From positions 1-35,335 of IMG/VR virus record IMGVR_UViG_3300031601_000009: a DNA stretch of 35,335 nt, one strand, 5' to 3'. A model generated the notes under the pieces. The model did not search any database. It saw nothing but the letters and a program-made list of their open reading frames with translations, and was not told the DNA's origin. The DNA comes from a virus. Below, in pieces: positions 1,617-31,176 of the stretch (its first letter is position 1; every line of letters begins with the position of its first letter). Made by a program: the position numbers and the translations under genes.

Positions 1617-3398
1617 ATGAATTTAGAATACTTCCTAGAGAATAAAAATGGGTCTAGATTAAAACCAAAATCATTAAAAAAGGAGAACATAACATTATAT
1701 AATAAGATATTAGATTATAATGTAGGTAATGGTTTTAATGATTTACCGTTTAAGGAACAAGTGTGGTTCTACATTAATAGGTGTGACACAAAACCCAAAT
1801 GTGGTGTGTGTGGTGGGGAAACAAAGTTTGAACGAGTGAGTACTGGGTATCGTAATTATTGTTCTATTAAATGTAAATCCATATCTAAAACGGTAAAAGA
1901 TAAAACAATAAACACATTTAATGAGAAATATGGTGGACACCCAATGAAGAACGATACCATTAAAGATAAAATAAAGAAAACTAACATGGGTAGGTATGGT
2001 CATGAATCCCATTTAAGTTCCGAAATCATAAAATCTAAAATAGAATCAACCAACCTAATTAAATATGGTGTTAAACGACCATTAGAATCAAAAACCATCC
2101 AAGACAAAAGTCGTAACACTATGATGGATAGACATGGTGTTGAACATGGTTTACAATCAGATGATATACACAAAAAAACCACAGAGTCGTTAATAAAGAA
2201 TAATGATTGGGGTGTGTTTTATGGTAAAATACAGGACACTAAGGAATGGTTATATGGTGATAAAAACTATAATAACACGGAGAAAAATAAAGAAACGTGT
2301 TTAGGGAAATATGGTGTTGATAGTGTCTTAAAAAACCCTGACATACGAAATAGAATCAGTGATACAAAATTGAGGGACAGTGTTAGTGGATATAGGTTTG
2401 GTGGTGATATAGAAATTGTTTCACATGACAGTGACACATGTTGTGTTTATTGTAAAGTGTGTGGTATGGAAACTGAGACACCGAGACATTTTATGGTGAT
2501 GAGGGGTTATAGGGGCAACAACATGTGTCTCGAATGTAACCCCAAAGGTAAATTTAATTCAGAAAATGAGTTAACACATTTTATTACTGAGGAATATGTT
2601 CAGAATGATAGAACTGTATTAGAGGGGTTAGAGATTGACATCTTAATACCTAACAAAAAAATGGGTATAGAGTATGATGGTGTTTATTGGCACAATGAAC
2701 TATATGTGGATAAAAAATATCACCTAAATAAAACCGAATTAGCTAAACAAAAGGGGTATGATTTAATACACGTATTTGAGGATGAATGGGTTAATAAGGA
2801 ACCCATTGTTAAATCTATCATTAACAATAGGTTAGGTAATACACTTGATAGGGTTTATGGTAGGAAATGTGTTATTAAAGAAATTAACTCTAAGGTGTCA
2901 AAACAATTTCTAATAGATAACCACATACAAGGGAATGTTAATTCTAAAATTAAATTAGGTTTGTATCATGTTGATGAGTTGATATCGGTTATGACCTTTG
3001 GTGGTAATAGGGTAGCTTTAGGTTCTAAAAATAGGGTAGGTGAATGGGAAATGTTACGATTTTGTAATAAACTGAATACCTCGGTTATCGGTGGTGCATC
3101 AAAATTATTCAAGTACTTCATTAAAACATATGAACCACAAAAAATAACAACATACGCTGATAGACGATACTTTAATGGTGGGTTATATGAAAAATTGGGT
3201 TTTACCTTCCATTCGAATACCGTACCTAACTATTACTACGTAATTAACAACAAAAGACATCACAGGTATAAATTTAGGAAAGATGTTTTGGTTTCGGATG
3301 GTTATGATAAAAATAAAACGGAACACCAAATCATGTTAGAACGTAAGATATATAGAATATATGATTGTGGTAATAGTAAATGGGAATGGGATATTTAG
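1617..3398 (+). CDS. Homing endonuclease-like protein: zinc ribbon, Vsr/EDxHD-type nuclease, GNAT-like C-terminus
   Basis: This 593-aa protein starts with a helical region and a Cys4 zinc ribbon (C62, C65, C82, C86). Repeats of the form K-x-x-x-T-x-x-x-(K/R)YG follow at about 95-250, resembling DNA-binding repeats of phage homing nucleases. A second Cys4 cluster lies near 277-312. A PD-(D/E)xK-type core follows, with LEIDILIP, GIEYDGVYWHNE and LIHVFEDEW at about 340-400. The last 180 residues (GRKCVIKEI, HIQGNV, LGLYH, YADRRY, RIYDCGNSKWE) match the same region of the 13559-15067 protein and look GNAT-like in layout. It stands alone between tail genes on the opposite strand, as expected of a free-standing homing endonuclease. 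Cutting activity is inferred. Confidence 0.75.
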   Translation: MNLEYFLENKNGSRLKPKSLKKENITLYNKILDYNVGNGFNDLPFKEQVWFYINRCDTKPKCGVCGGETKFERVSTGYRNYCSIKCKSISKTVKDKTINTFNEKYGGHPMKNDTIKDKIKKTNMGRYGHESHLSSEIIKSKIESTNLIKYGVKRPLESKTIQDKSRNTMMDRHGVEHGLQSDDIHKKTTESLIKNNDWGVFYGKIQDTKEWLYGDKNYNNTEKNKETCLGKYGVDSVLKNPDIRNRISDTKLRDSVSGYRFGGDIEIVSHDSDTCCVYCKVCGMETETPRHFMVMRGYRGNNMCLECNPKGKFNSENELTHFITEEYVQNDRTVLEGLEIDILIPNKKMGIEYDGVYWHNELYVDKKYHLNKTELAKQKGYDLIHVFEDEWVNKEPIVKSIINNRLGNTLDRVYGRKCVIKEINSKVSKQFLIDNHIQGNVNSKIKLGLYHVDELISVMTFGGNRVALGSKNRVGEWEMLRFCNKLNTSVIGGASKLFKYFIKTYEPQKITTYADRRYFNGGLYEKLGFTFHSNTVPNYYYVINNKRHHRYKFRKDVLVSDGYDKNKTEHQIMLERKIYRIYDCGNSKWEWDI

Positions 3399-13558: not shown

Positions 13559-15067
13559 TTAAAATGTTAACTCGAACTTCATGGTACCACAATCCCATAT
13601 CCTATCATAACCGTTCTCTCTCATAATTTCCCACTCGGTTTTGTTTGGGTCAAATCCTTTACCGACGAGAACACTTTTTCGATAGTTATATCGATGTTCC
13701 CTAGTGTTATAACCTACCTTGGTGTACCAATAGTTCGGTGGTGATTGTTTTATGAATTTAAATTCATTTTTGTTATACCCATTTTCAGTTATATTATTAC
13801 CTGACCATCGAATGTCAGCGTATGTGAATAACCTATCCGTTAAACCCATACCGATAAAGTGTTTCAGTAATTTAGACATCCCACCATTAACATTATTGTT
13901 GATTAGTGAGGCAAACCGAATAAGTTCCCAATTTGATTCACCTTGTGTGATTTTACGTTTACCGAAAGTCATCACAGAAACTAATAGGTCATTATGGTAT
14001 AAACCTAGGTTTATACCACTTTTAGTGTCACCTTGTATATGGTTCTGTGTTAAAAACACCTTCTTGGTTTTATAGTCTAACACTTTAACCACACATTTCC
14101 TACCATGTATTTTATTTGGTGTTATTTTTAATAAATTACGTAACCTAGATAATATTAATTCATAATTATCTAATTCATCACTGAATATATGGATTAACTT
14201 AATGTGTTTATCTTTACATAAATCAGTTTTCTTTAGATGGTAATTTTTATCCTTACCATTACCCTCACTATGCCAATACAAACCATTTAATTCTATAGCT
14301 AAATTGTGTTCTGGGATATAGAAGTCTAGTTCCATTGGTGATATTACTTTTCTATCGTTTTTTATGTAATTAATCCCATTACTTATTAAAAATTGTTCTA
14401 ACTTAATTTCTGATTTTGGGTTTGTTATGATTGGTTTACAAACTCGACATATCGGTACCATTCCACTACCTAACACAGTACTCGTAAAACTATTATCACA
14501 CATCAAACAATGGAAGGTGTAATGTCTAGATGTGTTACCGTCTTTATTATTTATGTAGTCATCAACAATTATTAAATCATTTTTAAATAAACGTTTGGTT
14601 AGTAGCTCTAGGTGTTTAACCCTAACGGTTTCCTTTTGTTTACGTATAGATGTTTCTGTGTCTCTATTCACCATTGTTTTCTCATGTATTTCTTTTACAT
14701 TCCACACATGGTCAACACCATACTTTTCTTTTACGGTTTTTTTTATCGATTTTTGTTGTTTTTCTCTGTTTTCGGGTATGTTCATCCACCCCATTCGACA
14801 TACATCGGAACAAAATTCACGTTTATGTTTCACACGTTCCGTGAATTTTGTGTCACATAACTTACAACACCTTTCCTCCCTAGTGGTCGTTGCTCTACAT
14901 TCTGTAGAACAATATTTTCGACCCTTAATACCACGATACTCTTTTTCACACACCCCACAGACATTATCAGTGTATTTATTATACTCTATTTTACAAACCT
15001 TCGAACAAAATTTTTGTGTTCTCTGTTTTGGTGTAAATTCATTATCACATTGATTACAACTACTCAT
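13559..15067 (-). CDS. Homing endonuclease-like protein, paralogue of 1617-3398
   Basis: This 502-aa protein has three N-terminal Cys4 zinc ribbons (CNQC with CSKVC, CGVC with CSTEC, CKLC with CSDVC) within the first 90 residues. A KYG-type helical region and another Cys4 cluster (CLMC with CRVC, about 186-212) follow. The PD-(D/E)xK core reads MELDFYIP, LAIELNGLYWHSEG and LIHIFSDEL at about 240-315. The C-terminal 190 residues (GRKCVVKVL, NHIQGD, LGLYHNDLLVSVMTFG, YADIRW, RIWDCGTMKFE) are clearly homologous to the 1617-3398 protein. The N-terminal halves differ, as if target-recognition modules were exchanged. It sits between sheath and accessory genes with its own promoter inside an inverted repeat. 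Confidence 0.78.
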   Translation of the reverse strand: MSSCNQCDNEFTPKQRTQKFCSKVCKIEYNKYTDNVCGVCEKEYRGIKGRKYCSTECRATTTREERCCKLCDTKFTERVKHKREFCSDVCRMGWMNIPENREKQQKSIKKTVKEKYGVDHVWNVKEIHEKTMVNRDTETSIRKQKETVRVKHLELLTKRLFKNDLIIVDDYINNKDGNTSRHYTFHCLMCDNSFTSTVLGSGMVPICRVCKPIITNPKSEIKLEQFLISNGINYIKNDRKVISPMELDFYIPEHNLAIELNGLYWHSEGNGKDKNYHLKKTDLCKDKHIKLIHIFSDELDNYELILSRLRNLLKITPNKIHGRKCVVKVLDYKTKKVFLTQNHIQGDTKSGINLGLYHNDLLVSVMTFGKRKITQGESNWELIRFASLINNNVNGGMSKLLKHFIGMGLTDRLFTYADIRWSGNNITENGYNKNEFKFIKQSPPNYWYTKVGYNTREHRYNYRKSVLVGKGFDPNKTEWEIMRENGYDRIWDCGTMKFELTF

Positions 15068-18048: not shown

Positions 18049-18201
18049 ATGAAAAGGACAAAAAACTTGAAGATTACCCCCTTAACACATAAAATATTAA
18101 AGGACTATTGTGAAGAAAATGGTCTTAAGATGTTTGCGTTTGTCGAAAAAATTATTAAAGATAAGTGTGTTGACCCTAAGGATATCTATAACGAGGATTA
18201 A
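18049..18201 (+). CDS. 50-aa ribbon-helix-helix-like DNA-binding protein
   Basis: A short plus-strand frame encodes MKRTKNLKITPLTHKILKDY and then CEENGLKMFAFVEKIIKDKC, ending at TAA 18199-18201. One basic beta strand (about 4-10), helix A (12-24) and helix B (28-42) fit the ribbon-helix-helix fold, whose members bind palindromic DNA as dimers. The cluster of inverted repeats immediately upstream supports this. Its last four bases overlap the end of the convergent patatin-like gene. No clear Bacteroidota promoter was found. The target could be its own gene or the divergent sheath gene. Confidence 0.7.
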   Translation: MKRTKNLKITPLTHKILKDYCEENGLKMFAFVEKIIKDKCVDPKDIYNED

Positions 18202-19199
18202 CCTCGTTTCTTAATATTACCTTTAACTTCAGTATTAATTTCAACAATATCACCCTTCATACCGTCAAAGATTAATTTAGGTTTTCTCCTACCAACCAAC
18301 TCATAAGTTTTACAGTATTGTAACTTAGCTGATTCATAACCTTCATCCCACCACTCAGACATTGCCTCTTTATTAAAGATTAATGAATTATTTGTTAATT
18401 TCCTCGGTGTGTAATAGAGGTTAATTTTAACATCACCTTTAATGGTAGCTTTAAGATTAACCAAACGAATGTCGTCACGACCAATTTCAGTCATCATTAA
18501 ATCAATCGTTCTCAGTAAATAGTGGAATGGATTTCTAATCCTTTCAGGTGCTAACGGGTCATGTTCTTTTTTAAGTACAATAACATCAATTTCAGTGGCA
18601 CCTCTATCGATAGCCTCTTGGATTGGAATGTTTTCTAAAATACCACCGTCCGCGTAATCGTAACCACCTTTAGTGACGTATTCCATAAAAGGGGGTACTG
18701 TTGAAGAAGCCAACATCCAATCCCCAAAATCCTTCCAACCATAATCATTTGTTGATTTAAATTCGGATTGTGCTAACGTTAAGTTTGTAACACAAGCCAA
18801 TACCTCTTTATCTGAGTTTTTAATAATCTCAAAGTCACGTTCTGTCATAAACGTATTTATTATATCTCGTAGGTTAGATGCATCCCCGAAAGCGTTTTTA
18901 CCCCTAATTATTACATTGTATAACACATTCAAATAATCAATCCCAACCTTAGTCGAACCATTAATATCTTTTTTAACTTTAAATGGGTTAACCTTAAATA
19001 TGTCGTCTTGGGTTACAGAGGTGAAAGCCTCCCTCAACCTACTGAGTTCACTGATTGATAAGAACGGTACCAATAAACTCCCAGTTGATGTACCAATAAA
19101 TAAATCGTAGTTTCTGTGTTCTTCTTCAATAAGGTATTGTGCGACACCACCACCGAATGCCCCCTTACTACCACCACCTGAAACTACTAATGCTTTCAT
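18198..19199 (-). CDS. Patatin-like phospholipase
   Basis: This 333-aa protein has all patatin landmarks: the oxyanion loop GGGSKGAFGGG (8-18), the nucleophile elbow GTSTG with S38, the segment LASSTVPPFMEYV typical of the family, and the catalytic Asp in DYADGGILENIP (D184). Such enzymes release fatty acids from membrane phospholipids. The gene is the last in a run of adhesin and fibre genes and starts 1 nt after its neighbour ends, so it is probably co-expressed late. It may act in lysis of the outer membrane or be carried in the virion for entry; which is not shown. No signal peptide is present. Confidence 0.9.
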   Translation of the reverse strand: MKALVVSGGGSKGAFGGGVAQYLIEEEHRNYDLFIGTSTGSLLVPFLSISELSRLREAFTSVTQDDIFKVNPFKVKKDINGSTKVGIDYLNVLYNVIIRGKNAFGDASNLRDIINTFMTERDFEIIKNSDKEVLACVTNLTLAQSEFKSTNDYGWKDFGDWMLASSTVPPFMEYVTKGGYDYADGGILENIPIQEAIDRGATEIDVIVLKKEHDPLAPERIRNPFHYLLRTIDLMMTEIGRDDIRLVNLKATIKGDVKINLYYTPRKLTNNSLIFNKEAMSEWWDEGYESAKLQYCKTYELVGRRKPKLIFDGMKGDIVEINTEVKGNIKKRG

Positions 19200-28180: not shown

Positions 28181-28239
28181 TTAGTTTTTACCTATTCCAT
28201 TTAATTTTTTCACTTCTTTATTATATTTCTTTGACAAAT

Positions 28240-31176
28240 ATGTTAGATTTATCTAAACTTAAAAATAGAACCGTTCTTTTAAAGCTAAAAGAATATGATG
28301 GTCCGAACGAGTATATACATAGATTACGTATGGATGCTCTTAGGGGGAAAGTGTTACTTACCCTCACTCAGGTTGCCTATATAAATGATAATTACACAAC
28401 GGAACCTATTGAAATAGGGAAAGTGGTTGATATTACATCTTTTTTTGGTGAACAATTACAAGAGAAGTGGGAATTAAAACACACACCCGAAAGAATTCTT
28501 GTTGAGATGTTATTAGCTGAAAGTGAGAAAGCTTACCATATAAAAGGTAAATTATATAAAAATCAAAAGAAATCAGAACTTTATTTCATACCAAAGACAC
28601 AACTTAATTCAGATTTATTCGAGGACGAGGTTATCGATATTGATGTGGATTTTGAACGACTGAATAATATGTCCACATTGGGTAGGAAATTATTCAAACA
28701 TCAAGAGGGGGCTGTAAAATTTTTATTACGTAAAAAGAAGGGTATTTTAGCTGACGATATGGGGTTAGGTAAGACAGCGAGTAGTATTGTAGCCTCTATC
28801 GAGGTTGATGCACAAAAGGTGTTGGTGGTTTGTCCATCTAACGCTAAGGTAAATTGGAAACGTGAGATACTGAATTATGGTGTATTAGATGATGATATTA
28901 ATATTATATCTGGTAAAAACTGGGTTAGTAATGGTAAATATACAATAATTAATTATGATATTCTTAAAAATTTTCACACACTAGTCGATGGACGAAAGAG
29001 GTATGAAGATGGTGAGATTAATAGGTCGTTAGTTGAAGAAAATTTTGATTTAGTGATATTAGATGAATGTTTCACATATAACACAATGGTTACAACTGAA
29101 ATGGGTAAGTTACCTATTGGGAAAATTGTTGATGATGATATGGATGTGAAAATTCTTAGTTACAACCTTGAAACAAATAAATTAGAGTATAAAAAAATTA
29201 ATAGATGGGTATCTAAAAAAACAAAGAACACTTTGTTAAGAATAAAACTTCACAACGACATATTTATAGACTGTACACCGAATCATAAAATATATGTAAA
29301 AAATAGAGGATATGTTAAAGCCGAAGAAATTAGAGAAAACGACGATTTGTGTTATTTGTCAGAAAGAATTAACGAAAAGACAAATGTGCAAGGGGGGTCG
29401 GTATTGTTCGAGAACGTGTGTGAACAACGACACGGAGATGAAAAAAAAATCGGGAGAGAAAGTGAGTCAGAGTCACATGGAAAACCGAAAGACAATTGTA
29501 TGCGAAGTATGTGGGGTAGAAAAAAGGGTGGTACCATCCTCAACCCAAAGATTTTGTTCAACAAGTTGTTCAGCCAAGTGGAGAGTGACACAGGAAGATA
29601 TATCGGAAAAGATAAAAAAGAGTTTACCGAAAGAAAGGCGTTCACAAATATCGAAAGATATGCACAAAAAACACCCACACATTGCGAAACTAACATCGGA
29701 AAGAATGAAAACAAACAACCCAATGACGAACCCAGAAACAGTGGAAAAAATGAGACAATCATTAAAAGGTCGAACATTTTTAAGTCGTGGTGGGAATGGG
29801 AAATTAACAAAACAACAAAAGATAATACACGAACTATTAGGTGGGGTGGAAAACGGGTGGATAATGGAATATCCAATAAAAACAAAGGAAGTATGGGGAG
29901 AATTCCAATCCTTACCAAATTGTTACAGTCCAGATATTGGAAATCCATCAATAAAACTAGCTATAGAAATAGATGGGAACAGTCACAAGACCAAGAAATG
30001 GAAATTCTTGGACAAGAGGAAAACAGCTGTGTTAGAACGTTTAGGGTGGAAAGTGTTACGGTTTTGGAACGAGGAAGTGGACAAGAACCCCAATATGATA
30101 ATAGAGGATATACAAAGGTTTATAATTTAGAAATAGATGATAATCACAACTATTTTAGTAATGGTGTGTTGGTTAGTAATTGTCACATGGTTAAAAATCA
30201 GAAGTCACAGAGAACCAAAATTATTAATGAGGTGTCTGAAAACATTGACCGTAGATGGTTATTAACAGGTACACCAATTGCTAATAGACCGATGGATTAC
30301 TATAATCTACTATTCTTATGTGATTCACCAATCACATCTAATTGGCAATACTTCGCTTTTAGATACTGTGAGGCTAAGAAATTCTATAAGAGAACTAAGA
30401 ATGGTGGTTCTAGGCAAATATGGTTAACGGATGGGTCATCTAATTTAGAGGAATTACATAATAGAACTAAGAAATATATCCTAAGAAGGATGAAGGAGGA
30501 CCACCTAGACTTGCCTCCGAAGATTGTGGCACCTTATTATCTTGAGATGGATGATATGAAGGCTTACAACTCAGTATTCGATGAGTACCTTGAATGGGCC
30601 AAATCTGAGGGTAGAAGTCTTGGTACTGGTAGACACATGGTTGAGTTAGGAATCCTTAGAAAGTTTATCTCACTCAAGAAGGTTGAACATAGTATCGAAA
30701 TAGCACAACAGGCTATGGACCAAGGTAAGAAGGTTATTATCTTCACATGTTTCACTGATTCATTTAATGCTTTGATGTCACACTTCGGTAAACTCGCTGT
30801 GGGTCATAATGGTAAGATGAATGGTAATCAGAAACAATCATCAATTGATAACTTCCAAGAGAACGATAAAGTAAAGGTATTTGTTGGGAATCTTGTGTCA
30901 GCAGGAACAGCTATCACATTAACAGCGGCGGAAGTGGTTATAATGAATGATTTAGATTTCGTCCCTTCTAACCACGCACAGGCTGAAGATAGGGCATATC
31001 GTATCGGAGCCACAAAAACGGTTAACGTATACTACCCAATATATGAGGGTACCATAGATGAAATGATGTATGGTATGTTACAAAAGAAGAGACAAATTAT
31101 TAATACGATTATGGGTGAGGACCACGAGGAAGTTAACATATCGGAAGATTTCATCAACCAAATTACGTTATCTTAA
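28240..31176 (+). CDS. SNF2-family helicase interrupted by an intein
   Basis: The 978-aa precursor has a phage-specific N-terminus (1-150), then the SNF2 core: motif I ADDMGLGKTASS (about 176), Ia VLVVCPSNAKVNWKRE, motif II VILDE|CH, III LLTGTPIANRP, IV KVIIFTCFTDSF, V VSAGTAITLTAAE and VI QAEDRAYRIGA. Residues 277-647 are an intein lying exactly between DE and CH of motif II, so the mature helicase has 607 residues. SNF2-like phage ATPases remodel or translocate on DNA during replication and repair. ATG 28240 is preferred to an upstream TTG at 28231; a weak TTTCTTTG box lies just before. The last four bases overlap the convergent 129-aa gene. Confidence 0.92.
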   Translation: MLDLSKLKNRTVLLKLKEYDGPNEYIHRLRMDALRGKVLLTLTQVAYINDNYTTEPIEIGKVVDITSFFGEQLQEKWELKHTPERILVEMLLAESEKAYHIKGKLYKNQKKSELYFIPKTQLNSDLFEDEVIDIDVDFERLNNMSTLGRKLFKHQEGAVKFLLRKKKGILADDMGLGKTASSIVASIEVDAQKVLVVCPSNAKVNWKREILNYGVLDDDINIISGKNWVSNGKYTIINYDILKNFHTLVDGRKRYEDGEINRSLVEENFDLVILDECFTYNTMVTTEMGKLPIGKIVDDDMDVKILSYNLETNKLEYKKINRWVSKKTKNTLLRIKLHNDIFIDCTPNHKIYVKNRGYVKAEEIRENDDLCYLSERINEKTNVQGGSVLFENVCEQRHGDEKKIGRESESESHGKPKDNCMRSMWGRKKGGTILNPKILFNKLFSQVESDTGRYIGKDKKEFTERKAFTNIERYAQKTPTHCETNIGKNENKQPNDEPRNSGKNETIIKRSNIFKSWWEWEINKTTKDNTRTIRWGGKRVDNGISNKNKGSMGRIPILTKLLQSRYWKSINKTSYRNRWEQSQDQEMEILGQEENSCVRTFRVESVTVLERGSGQEPQYDNRGYTKVYNLEIDDNHNYFSNGVLVSNCHMVKNQKSQRTKIINEVSENIDRRWLLTGTPIANRPMDYYNLLFLCDSPITSNWQYFAFRYCEAKKFYKRTKNGGSRQIWLTDGSSNLEELHNRTKKYILRRMKEDHLDLPPKIVAPYYLEMDDMKAYNSVFDEYLEWAKSEGRSLGTGRHMVELGILRKFISLKKVEHSIEIAQQAMDQGKKVIIFTCFTDSFNALMSHFGKLAVGHNGKMNGNQKQSSIDNFQENDKVKVFVGNLVSAGTAITLTAAEVVIMNDLDFVPSNHAQAEDRAYRIGATKTVNVYYPIYEGTIDEMMYGMLQKKRQIINTIMGEDHEEVNISEDFINQITLS
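29068..30180 (+). mobile_element. Intein in helicase motif II (371 aa)
   Basis: The intein starts at Cys1 (precursor C277) with block A CFTYNTMVTTEMGKLPIGKI, block B TPNHKIYV at intein residues 70-77, and ends with block F/G VYNLEIDDNHNYFSNGVL followed by VSN. The next extein residue is Cys. All nucleophiles for protein splicing are therefore present (Cys1, the block B Thr and His, terminal Asn, Cys+1). The penultimate residue is Ser instead of the usual His. No LAGLIDADG or HNH motif exists in the splicing frame between blocks B and F. That stretch of about 250 residues is low-complexity Lys/Glu/Arg/Ser/Asn-rich and covers a homing endonuclease gene in another frame. Confidence 0.92.
29312..30130 (+). 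CDS. Homing endonuclease encoded out of frame inside the intein
   Basis: A complete 272-aa gene runs in the +1 frame relative to the helicase, from ATG 29312 to TAG 30128-30130, with an in-frame TAA 18 nt before the ATG. It has two Cys4 zinc ribbons (C13, C16, C32, C36; C64, C67, C82, C86) and a NUMOD3-like helix stretch (TNNPMTNPETVEKMRQSLKG, about 134-153). A C-terminal Vsr/DUF559-type nuclease follows: YSPDIGN (D208), LAIEIDGNSH (E219, D221, H225), LDKRKTAVLERLGWKVLRFW. It overlaps intein block B at its start and block F at its end. It is probably the mobility nuclease of the intein, made as a separate protein. Confidence 0.88.
   Translation: MLKPKKLEKTTICVICQKELTKRQMCKGGRYCSRTCVNNDTEMKKKSGEKVSQSHMENRKTIVCEVCGVEKRVVPSSTQRFCSTSCSAKWRVTQEDISEKIKKSLPKERRSQISKDMHKKHPHIAKLTSERMKTNNPMTNPETVEKMRQSLKGRTFLSRGGNGKLTKQQKIIHELLGGVENGWIMEYPIKTKEVWGEFQSLPNCYSPDIGNPSIKLAIEIDGNSHKTKKWKFLDKRKTAVLERLGWKVLRFWNEEVDKNPNMIIEDIQRFII

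Follow-up and report, generated by a model that had tools for sequence, protein, structure and literature searches.

The stretch of viral DNA analyzed here (the window, 35,335 nucleotides [nt] in full) spans positions 1 to 35,335 of IMG/VR record IMGVR_UViG_3300031601_000009 and carries a helicase gene with an intein inside it and a second gene, for a homing-endonuclease-like protein, nested out of frame within that intein. The host gene lies on the plus strand at 28240 to 31176 and encodes an SNF2-type (SF2) helicase (PF00176, E = 1e-26; Helicase_C, E = 9e-13). Its open reading frame (ORF) starts at an ATG at 28240 or a TTG at 28231 and runs to 31176 without interruption. On the same strand, the N-extein (28240 to 29067) and the C-extein (30181 to 31176) flank an intein of 371 codons (29068 to 30180), which begins with Cys1 (29068), ends with Asn371 (30180), and is followed by a +1 Cys. 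The original prediction, made from the sequence alone, had the helicase frame open from block A to the terminal Asn; the ORF and the intein profile matches agree with it to the exact coordinates. The insertion point falls in helicase motif II, between E and C (DE/CH), where intein-less helicase homologues read DEAH.

The insert matches the profiles PF14890 (Intein_splicing, E = 1e-14), TIGR01445 (E = 3e-11), and TIGR01443 (E = 5e-7), all beyond the curated cut-offs. Its N-terminal splicing region has the Cys nucleophile and the TxxH of block B, and C1, T70, and H73 are invariant in 36 aligned sequences, as is N371 at the end of C-terminal blocks F and G. Every locus with a located C block has a terminal Asn followed by Cys or Ser. 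In an AlphaFold2 model, the predicted local distance difference test score (pLDDT) is ≥90 at residues 1 to 100 and most of residues 321 to 371 and ~45 in between, and the Foldseek matches of the ordered part are the NrdJ-1, DnaE, and RecA inteins (E of ~1e-6), as expected of a Hint fold. Judged from its sequence, the insert at 29068 to 30180 is a genuine intein, which would excise itself and ligate the exteins.

Three parts can be distinguished in the intein, all on the plus strand. The N-terminal Hint half, with blocks A and B, occupies 29068 to 29367 (residues 1 to 100; pLDDT, ~90 to 98), and its final 56 nt overlap the start of the nuclease gene. The middle, at 29368 to 30027 (residues 101 to 320; pLDDT, ~45), is predicted to be disordered and appears only to keep the frame open across the nuclease gene. 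The C-terminal Hint half, at 30028 to 30180, comprises the strand before block F and blocks F and G, and its initial 103 nt overlap the region encoding the nuclease C terminus. Both halves lie on one ORF, and the window intein is thus neither split nor part of a fractured gene.

The nested gene (29312 to 30130, plus strand) lies in the +1 frame of the intein, not in the intein frame as in canonical large inteins, and encodes 272 amino acids between its own ATG and TAG. A complete gene of this kind had been predicted, and family searches proposed at the same time assigned the 272-amino-acid protein to DUF559 (PF04480, E = 2e-14) and the 371-amino-acid intein to the three profiles given above. 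The protein consists of two zinc ribbons, a helical linker, and a DUF559/EDxHD-Vsr nuclease domain. The zinc ribbons, recognized in the sequence as C13/C16/C32/C36 and C64/C67/C82/C86 (29348 to 29569, plus strand), are probably its DNA-binding part; the second is invariant or almost so across the alignment. The nuclease core (29933 to 30070, plus strand) contains the invariant residues D208, E219, D221, H225, D234, K237, R250, and N253, and the catalytic residues are invariant over 43 sequences. The AlphaFold2 model has a mean pLDDT of 90, and Foldseek placed I-Bth0305I (Protein Data Bank entry 3r3p; target TM of 0.73) first, with 3hrl and Vsr (1vsr) among the best matches, none of which reached an E value of 0.001. 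I-Bth0305I is an EDxHD homing endonuclease, named a mobile intron protein by its depositors. In profile comparisons it was matched weakly (E = 0.02), and the DUF559-like protein 3hrl was nearer by sequence (E = 7e-11). Sequence, fold, and conserved catalytic residues together place the product in the EDxHD/Vsr-like (DUF559) endonuclease family. It would cleave DNA and act in homing. Indirect hints toward homing are its sporadic presence, the existence of empty alleles, and several insertion points in helicase motif II.

The helicase-frame translation of the nuclease gene had been described as low-complexity filler. This holds for intein residues 101 to 320, which are predicted to be disordered, but not for the first 56 nt and the last ~103 nt of the nuclease ORF, which overlap well-folded parts of the intein.

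Phase of the nuclease gene in relatives

A tblastn search with the nuclease against phage records gave matches in 40 records, all beneath a large annotated coding sequence (CDS) that was mostly named helicase. Six of these phages were fetched (CP-T1, 1.088.O, 159E43-1b, phi673, MR14, and 103E44.1), and in 6/6 the nuclease match is shifted to +1 relative to the annotated helicase CDS. The six were sequenced independently and include Vibrio phage CP-T1, Vibrio lentus phage 1.088.O, Corynebacterium phage phi673 (locus L005 of the survey described below), and Pseudomonas phage MR14. None of the six records annotates a nuclease gene at the helicase locus; many "plain helicases" in public phage records, that of CP-T1 included, thus hide an unannotated endonuclease gene.

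We then surveyed relatives from both sides of the overlap. A search of IMG/VR with the nuclease as a single sequence gave no match, but a profile built from the nuclease alignment did find relatives in IMG/VR and GTDB genomes, and profiles for the intein N and C blocks were applied at these loci. This nuclease-first survey yielded 96 distinct inteins with a recognized N block and the nuclease in the +1 frame; three further +1 loci (L097, L114, and L117), divergent or cut, were recognized by eye. No locus in this survey had the nuclease in the third phase. The original prediction had named in-frame homologues as evidence against itself; these were limited to two distant ones on long branches of the nuclease tree (L116 and L135) and were not found in the family around the window. 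Their arrangement is possibly ancestral or convergent.

The second survey began from the intein N block, blind to what the intein contained, and was confirmed against the intein of L065, so that it samples relatives of that intein. The nuclease lay in the +1 frame within an open intein frame in 75/80 of these inteins and in the intein frame in 0/80; the remaining 5/80 were mini-inteins of 128 to 138 amino acids with no nuclease. Five of the 75 are shortened to 141 to 196 amino acids and retain nuclease remnants. The bacterial hosts of the genome loci belong to at least nine named phyla. Most exteins fall into one similarity group, the others into smaller groups, and the insertion is nearly always at or beside helicase motif II. 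Out-of-frame nesting is a family trait and not a one-off.

Selection on two frames

Is the intein frame open over the nuclease gene by chance? We shuffled synonymous codons within each nuclease gene and counted the stops that arose in the intein frame. The window nuclease has 0 such stops, compared to 12.8 expected, and the frame stayed open in 0/1000 shuffles. Over the nuclease, 93/96 loci have no intein-frame stop, where shuffling leads one to expect ~10 per locus. Summed over the 96 loci, there are 42 intein-frame stops versus 982 expected, while the third frame has 1661 versus 1546 expected. All 42 are confined to three loci, L082 (26 stops), L086 (15 stops), and L019 (1 stop). L019 is nested and otherwise open, and its single stop may reflect a sequencing error or a break that happened recently, the first step toward a fractured gene. 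Relatives that are not nested out of frame served as controls: the free-standing nucleases L066, L072, L090, and L092 and the in-frame nucleases L116 and L135 have stops at the expected level. In L062, L089, and L102, also among the free-standing or in-frame relatives, stops are residually depleted, as if these genes had recently been freed from nesting.

The geometry of the nested phase bears on how the frame can stay open. Each intein codon consists of base 3 of one nuclease codon and bases 1 and 2 of the next. A stop therefore requires NNT followed by AA, AG, or GA, and since every NNT codon has a synonymous NNC, all stops can be removed with the nuclease protein unchanged. The other phase offers no such escape where Met precedes Lys, Asn, Thr, Ile, or Met, since a TGA is then inevitable, and 90/96 nucleases contain such a pair. 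Removable stops in the +1 phase, unavoidable stops in the other, and common descent together account for the single phase. An account in which third or mixed phases occur was rejected; no such locus was found, and 90/96 nucleases would hold unavoidable stops.

Over the overlap, the nuclease frame is the conserved one. Amino acid identity over 130 pairs is 58% in the nuclease frame and 34% in the intein frame, and substitutions are concentrated at the third positions of nuclease codons (8083, 7128, and 12890 at positions 1, 2, and 3, respectively). Together with the pLDDT of 90 and the invariant catalytic residues, this bears out the earlier view that the nested product is clearly protein-like.

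At the 3′ end of the nuclease gene both frames are constrained. The window motif at 30043 to 30076 (plus strand) encodes GWKVLRFWNEE in the nuclease and the strand RVESVTVLERG in the intein on shared bases. Across the family, the same bases encode GWxVLRFxN, a near-invariant motif of the nuclease, and RVxSVxVLExG, a strand of the intein, usually 45 to 46 codons before the intein end; in many members, the nuclease 3′ end also overlaps intein blocks F and G. The dual-coded Leu is encoded by TTR in 72/81 cases, compared to 45% elsewhere in the same genes and 16/47 in free DUF559 genes, and the dual-coded Arg is encoded by AGR in 68/92 cases, compared to 38% elsewhere in the same genes and 2/47 in free DUF559 genes. 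When loci were divided into four GC classes, the Leu TTR excess was significant in the three above 40% GC and the Arg AGR excess in all except the 40 to 50% class. By these counts, codon choice at the motif serves the intein, and the overlap is a case of true dual coding. In the shortened inteins L210 and L251 (141 to 142 amino acids), the nuclease is gone and the +1 frame still reads KVLRFTNKQV or KVLRFKNKQV, which indicates that the intein has retained that stretch.

Expression of the nuclease and competing explanations

The nuclease frame has an ATG at its boundary in 89/96 loci, compared to 57 and 43 in the other two frames. Upstream of 39% of nuclease starts, but of only ~10% of control internal ATGs, Shine-Dalgarno pairing reaches -6 kcal or better (P = 1e-8). 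Both enrichments favor internal initiation over frameshifting, and the nuclease and the splicing product would accordingly be made separately. We propose, with a probability of roughly 0.88, that the window intein belongs to a widespread class of mobile inteins in helicases, with a homing endonuclease gene overprinted on them in the +1 frame and translated separately. Anatomy, conserved phase, stop avoidance, the dual-coded strand, two predicted folds, and enriched start signals, all of them computed, agree with the earlier claim that splicing domain and nuclease share DNA in two frames; splicing, separate expression, DNA cleavage, and homing are what we infer. In the proposed mechanism, the long helicase-intein frame would be translated straight through, and the Hint domain, assembled from its N- and C-terminal parts, would rejoin the helicase and release the intein, disordered middle included. 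A start codon inside the intein sequence would give rise to the nuclease as a separate product, whose targets would be the motif II codons of helicase genes that lack the intein; repair of the cut would then copy the element. Synonymous third-base choices in the nuclease would hold the intein frame open.

Three observations weigh against this proposal. The loci are related, so that their counts are not independent, yet their nucleases form 90 clusters at 70% identity and 31 at 50%. The penultimate residue of the window intein is Ser, where His is usual. The Shine-Dalgarno match at the window nuclease start (29312) is weak; over 30 gene starts in the window there is no Shine-Dalgarno signal at all (mean duplex energy, +0.57 kcal) and upstream regions are A-rich, and the weak match therefore says little. 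Such A-rich, Shine-Dalgarno-free starts resemble those in phages of Bacteroidota, a group to which the host may belong.

A programmed +1 frameshift near 29300 to 29340 would instead produce the nuclease as a fusion behind the N-extein and the N-terminal half of the intein. The nuclease frame is indeed +1 to the intein and is often already open a short way ahead of the start codon. We regard this route as unlikely, given the boundary ATG and the Shine-Dalgarno pairing just ahead of it; in the window, moreover, the nuclease frame opens only at 29300, immediately after a stop in that frame, and no slippery motif was noticed by eye, a systematic search for one not having been made. That the nuclease ORF is a decaying, unexpressed passenger and only the intein matters is suggested by shortened members with nuclease remnants and by nuclease-free mini-inteins. 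Full-length members conserve the nuclease protein with invariant catalytic residues, and almost all of them have an unbroken ORF, which makes a mere passenger quite improbable.

The insertion might also stay in the helicase unspliced, as is held for the out-of-frame nuclease insertion ShiLan in a phage methylase (PMC11855218). We find this very hard to reconcile with the presence and conservation of all splicing blocks, Cys1, the terminal Asn, and the +1 Cys or Ser, with intein ends that fold as a Hint domain, and with a position in DEAH, a motif on which helicases depend. A pair of compensating indels, from sequencing or assembly, that shifted an ordinary in-frame nuclease is a common cause of such pictures in single draft contigs. 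The original prediction had raised this possibility, and the homologues settle it: the same phase recurs in 96 distinct loci and in independently sequenced cultured phages, and stop avoidance and codon bias are evolutionary signals beyond what sequencing error can make, leaving the explanation a negligible probability.

Known systems and eroded relatives

The textbook intein is a single chain whose splicing and nuclease domains share one frame. Canonical bifunctional inteins (the PF14890 class) share with the window Hint blocks at the ends, a nuclease between blocks B and F, and insertion in a conserved active-site motif. They differ in that their nuclease is in frame, whereas the window has a separate +1 gene, an intein-frame middle predicted to be disordered, and a 3′ overlap with the strand before block F. 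Among nested overlapping phage genes, phiX174 E within D is likewise a complete gene with its own start in another frame but is not mobile and involves no splicing. In the fractured genes that Dassa et al. are said to have described in 2009, in a work cited by PMC12350094, the intein is split and a Vsr-like nuclease gene stands free between its two parts. The window likewise has a Vsr-like nuclease between intein halves and outside the intein frame, but its intein is one uninterrupted chain.

The closest precedent is the ShiLan domain and the Pacc40 insertion, phage methylase insertions with a hidden HNH endonuclease (Arsenault et al. 2025; PMC11855218). As in the window, an out-of-frame nuclease lies in a host gene whose frame stays open over it. 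Neither intein nor intron can be detected in those insertions, which are believed to stay unspliced and which place an HNH nuclease in the third frame of Mycobacterium phage methylases, in contrast to a DUF559 nuclease in the +1 frame of a helicase; the window, with its intein blocks, does not share their lack of splicing elements. For overlapping frames, that paper cites a preprint on actinobacteriophage inteins of "non-canonical architecture" (10.1101/2025.01.02.630785), which, as represented there, may anticipate our finding in part. The literature searched, which left out most subscription papers, described no intein whose nuclease lies in a different frame. The earlier statement that no described case was known must be narrowed in view of that preprint and of the out-of-frame non-intein HNH insertions published in 2025.

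Eroded forms occur among the relatives. Four helicase homologues (L167 to L170) lack the intein and have an uninterrupted DEAH, so the insertion is absent from some host genes; such empty alleles are among those that the original prediction had suggested looking for. In L082 (3502 to 4500) and L086 (3541 to 4494), the intein halves lie on separate ORFs and stops are near expectation (30.7 and 18.0, respectively). The N-half runs 20 nt into the nuclease gene before its stop, and the C-half ORF shares sequence with the nuclease 3′ end. Both look like the fractured state reached through stop accumulation; they are also candidate new natural split inteins with a +1 Cys. In L066, L072, and L102, a free-standing nuclease gene lies directly upstream of the helicase gene, in which no intein was found, and the nuclease possibly acts there without a splicing element. 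Free nucleases are interspersed among nested ones in the nuclease tree, which came from a quick search and has many open forks.

Empty alleles and nested, shortened, mini-, fractured, and free forms plausibly make up one series, in a tentative order of events. A broader account, to which we give even odds, is that overprinting sustains a self-contained lineage of mobile inteins: the nuclease would have entered the one phase in which stops can always be removed by synonymous changes, its 3′ end would have gained coding for the intein strand, and nesting would be a main route to fractured genes, with mini-inteins arising by internal deletion that leaves a footprint and split inteins arising by stop accumulation. 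The ~100 phage and bacterial helicases with stacked genes illustrate how the nuclease of a mobile element can evolve or be lost while splicing stays unharmed. The nested class also offers a testable path from a full intein to a mini-intein and to a split intein, a workhorse of protein engineering.

Elsewhere in the window, two more large homing-endonuclease-like genes, at 13559 to 15067 (minus strand) and 1617 to 3398 (plus strand), match PHROG 3339 (E = 6e-108 and 4e-127, respectively). They also show weak Vsr and MTES_1575 matches, and the phage thus carries at least three EDxHD/Vsr-like nucleases. A patatin-like phospholipase domain (PF01734, E = 2e-23) is encoded at 18198 to 19199 (minus strand), near the tail sheath gene.
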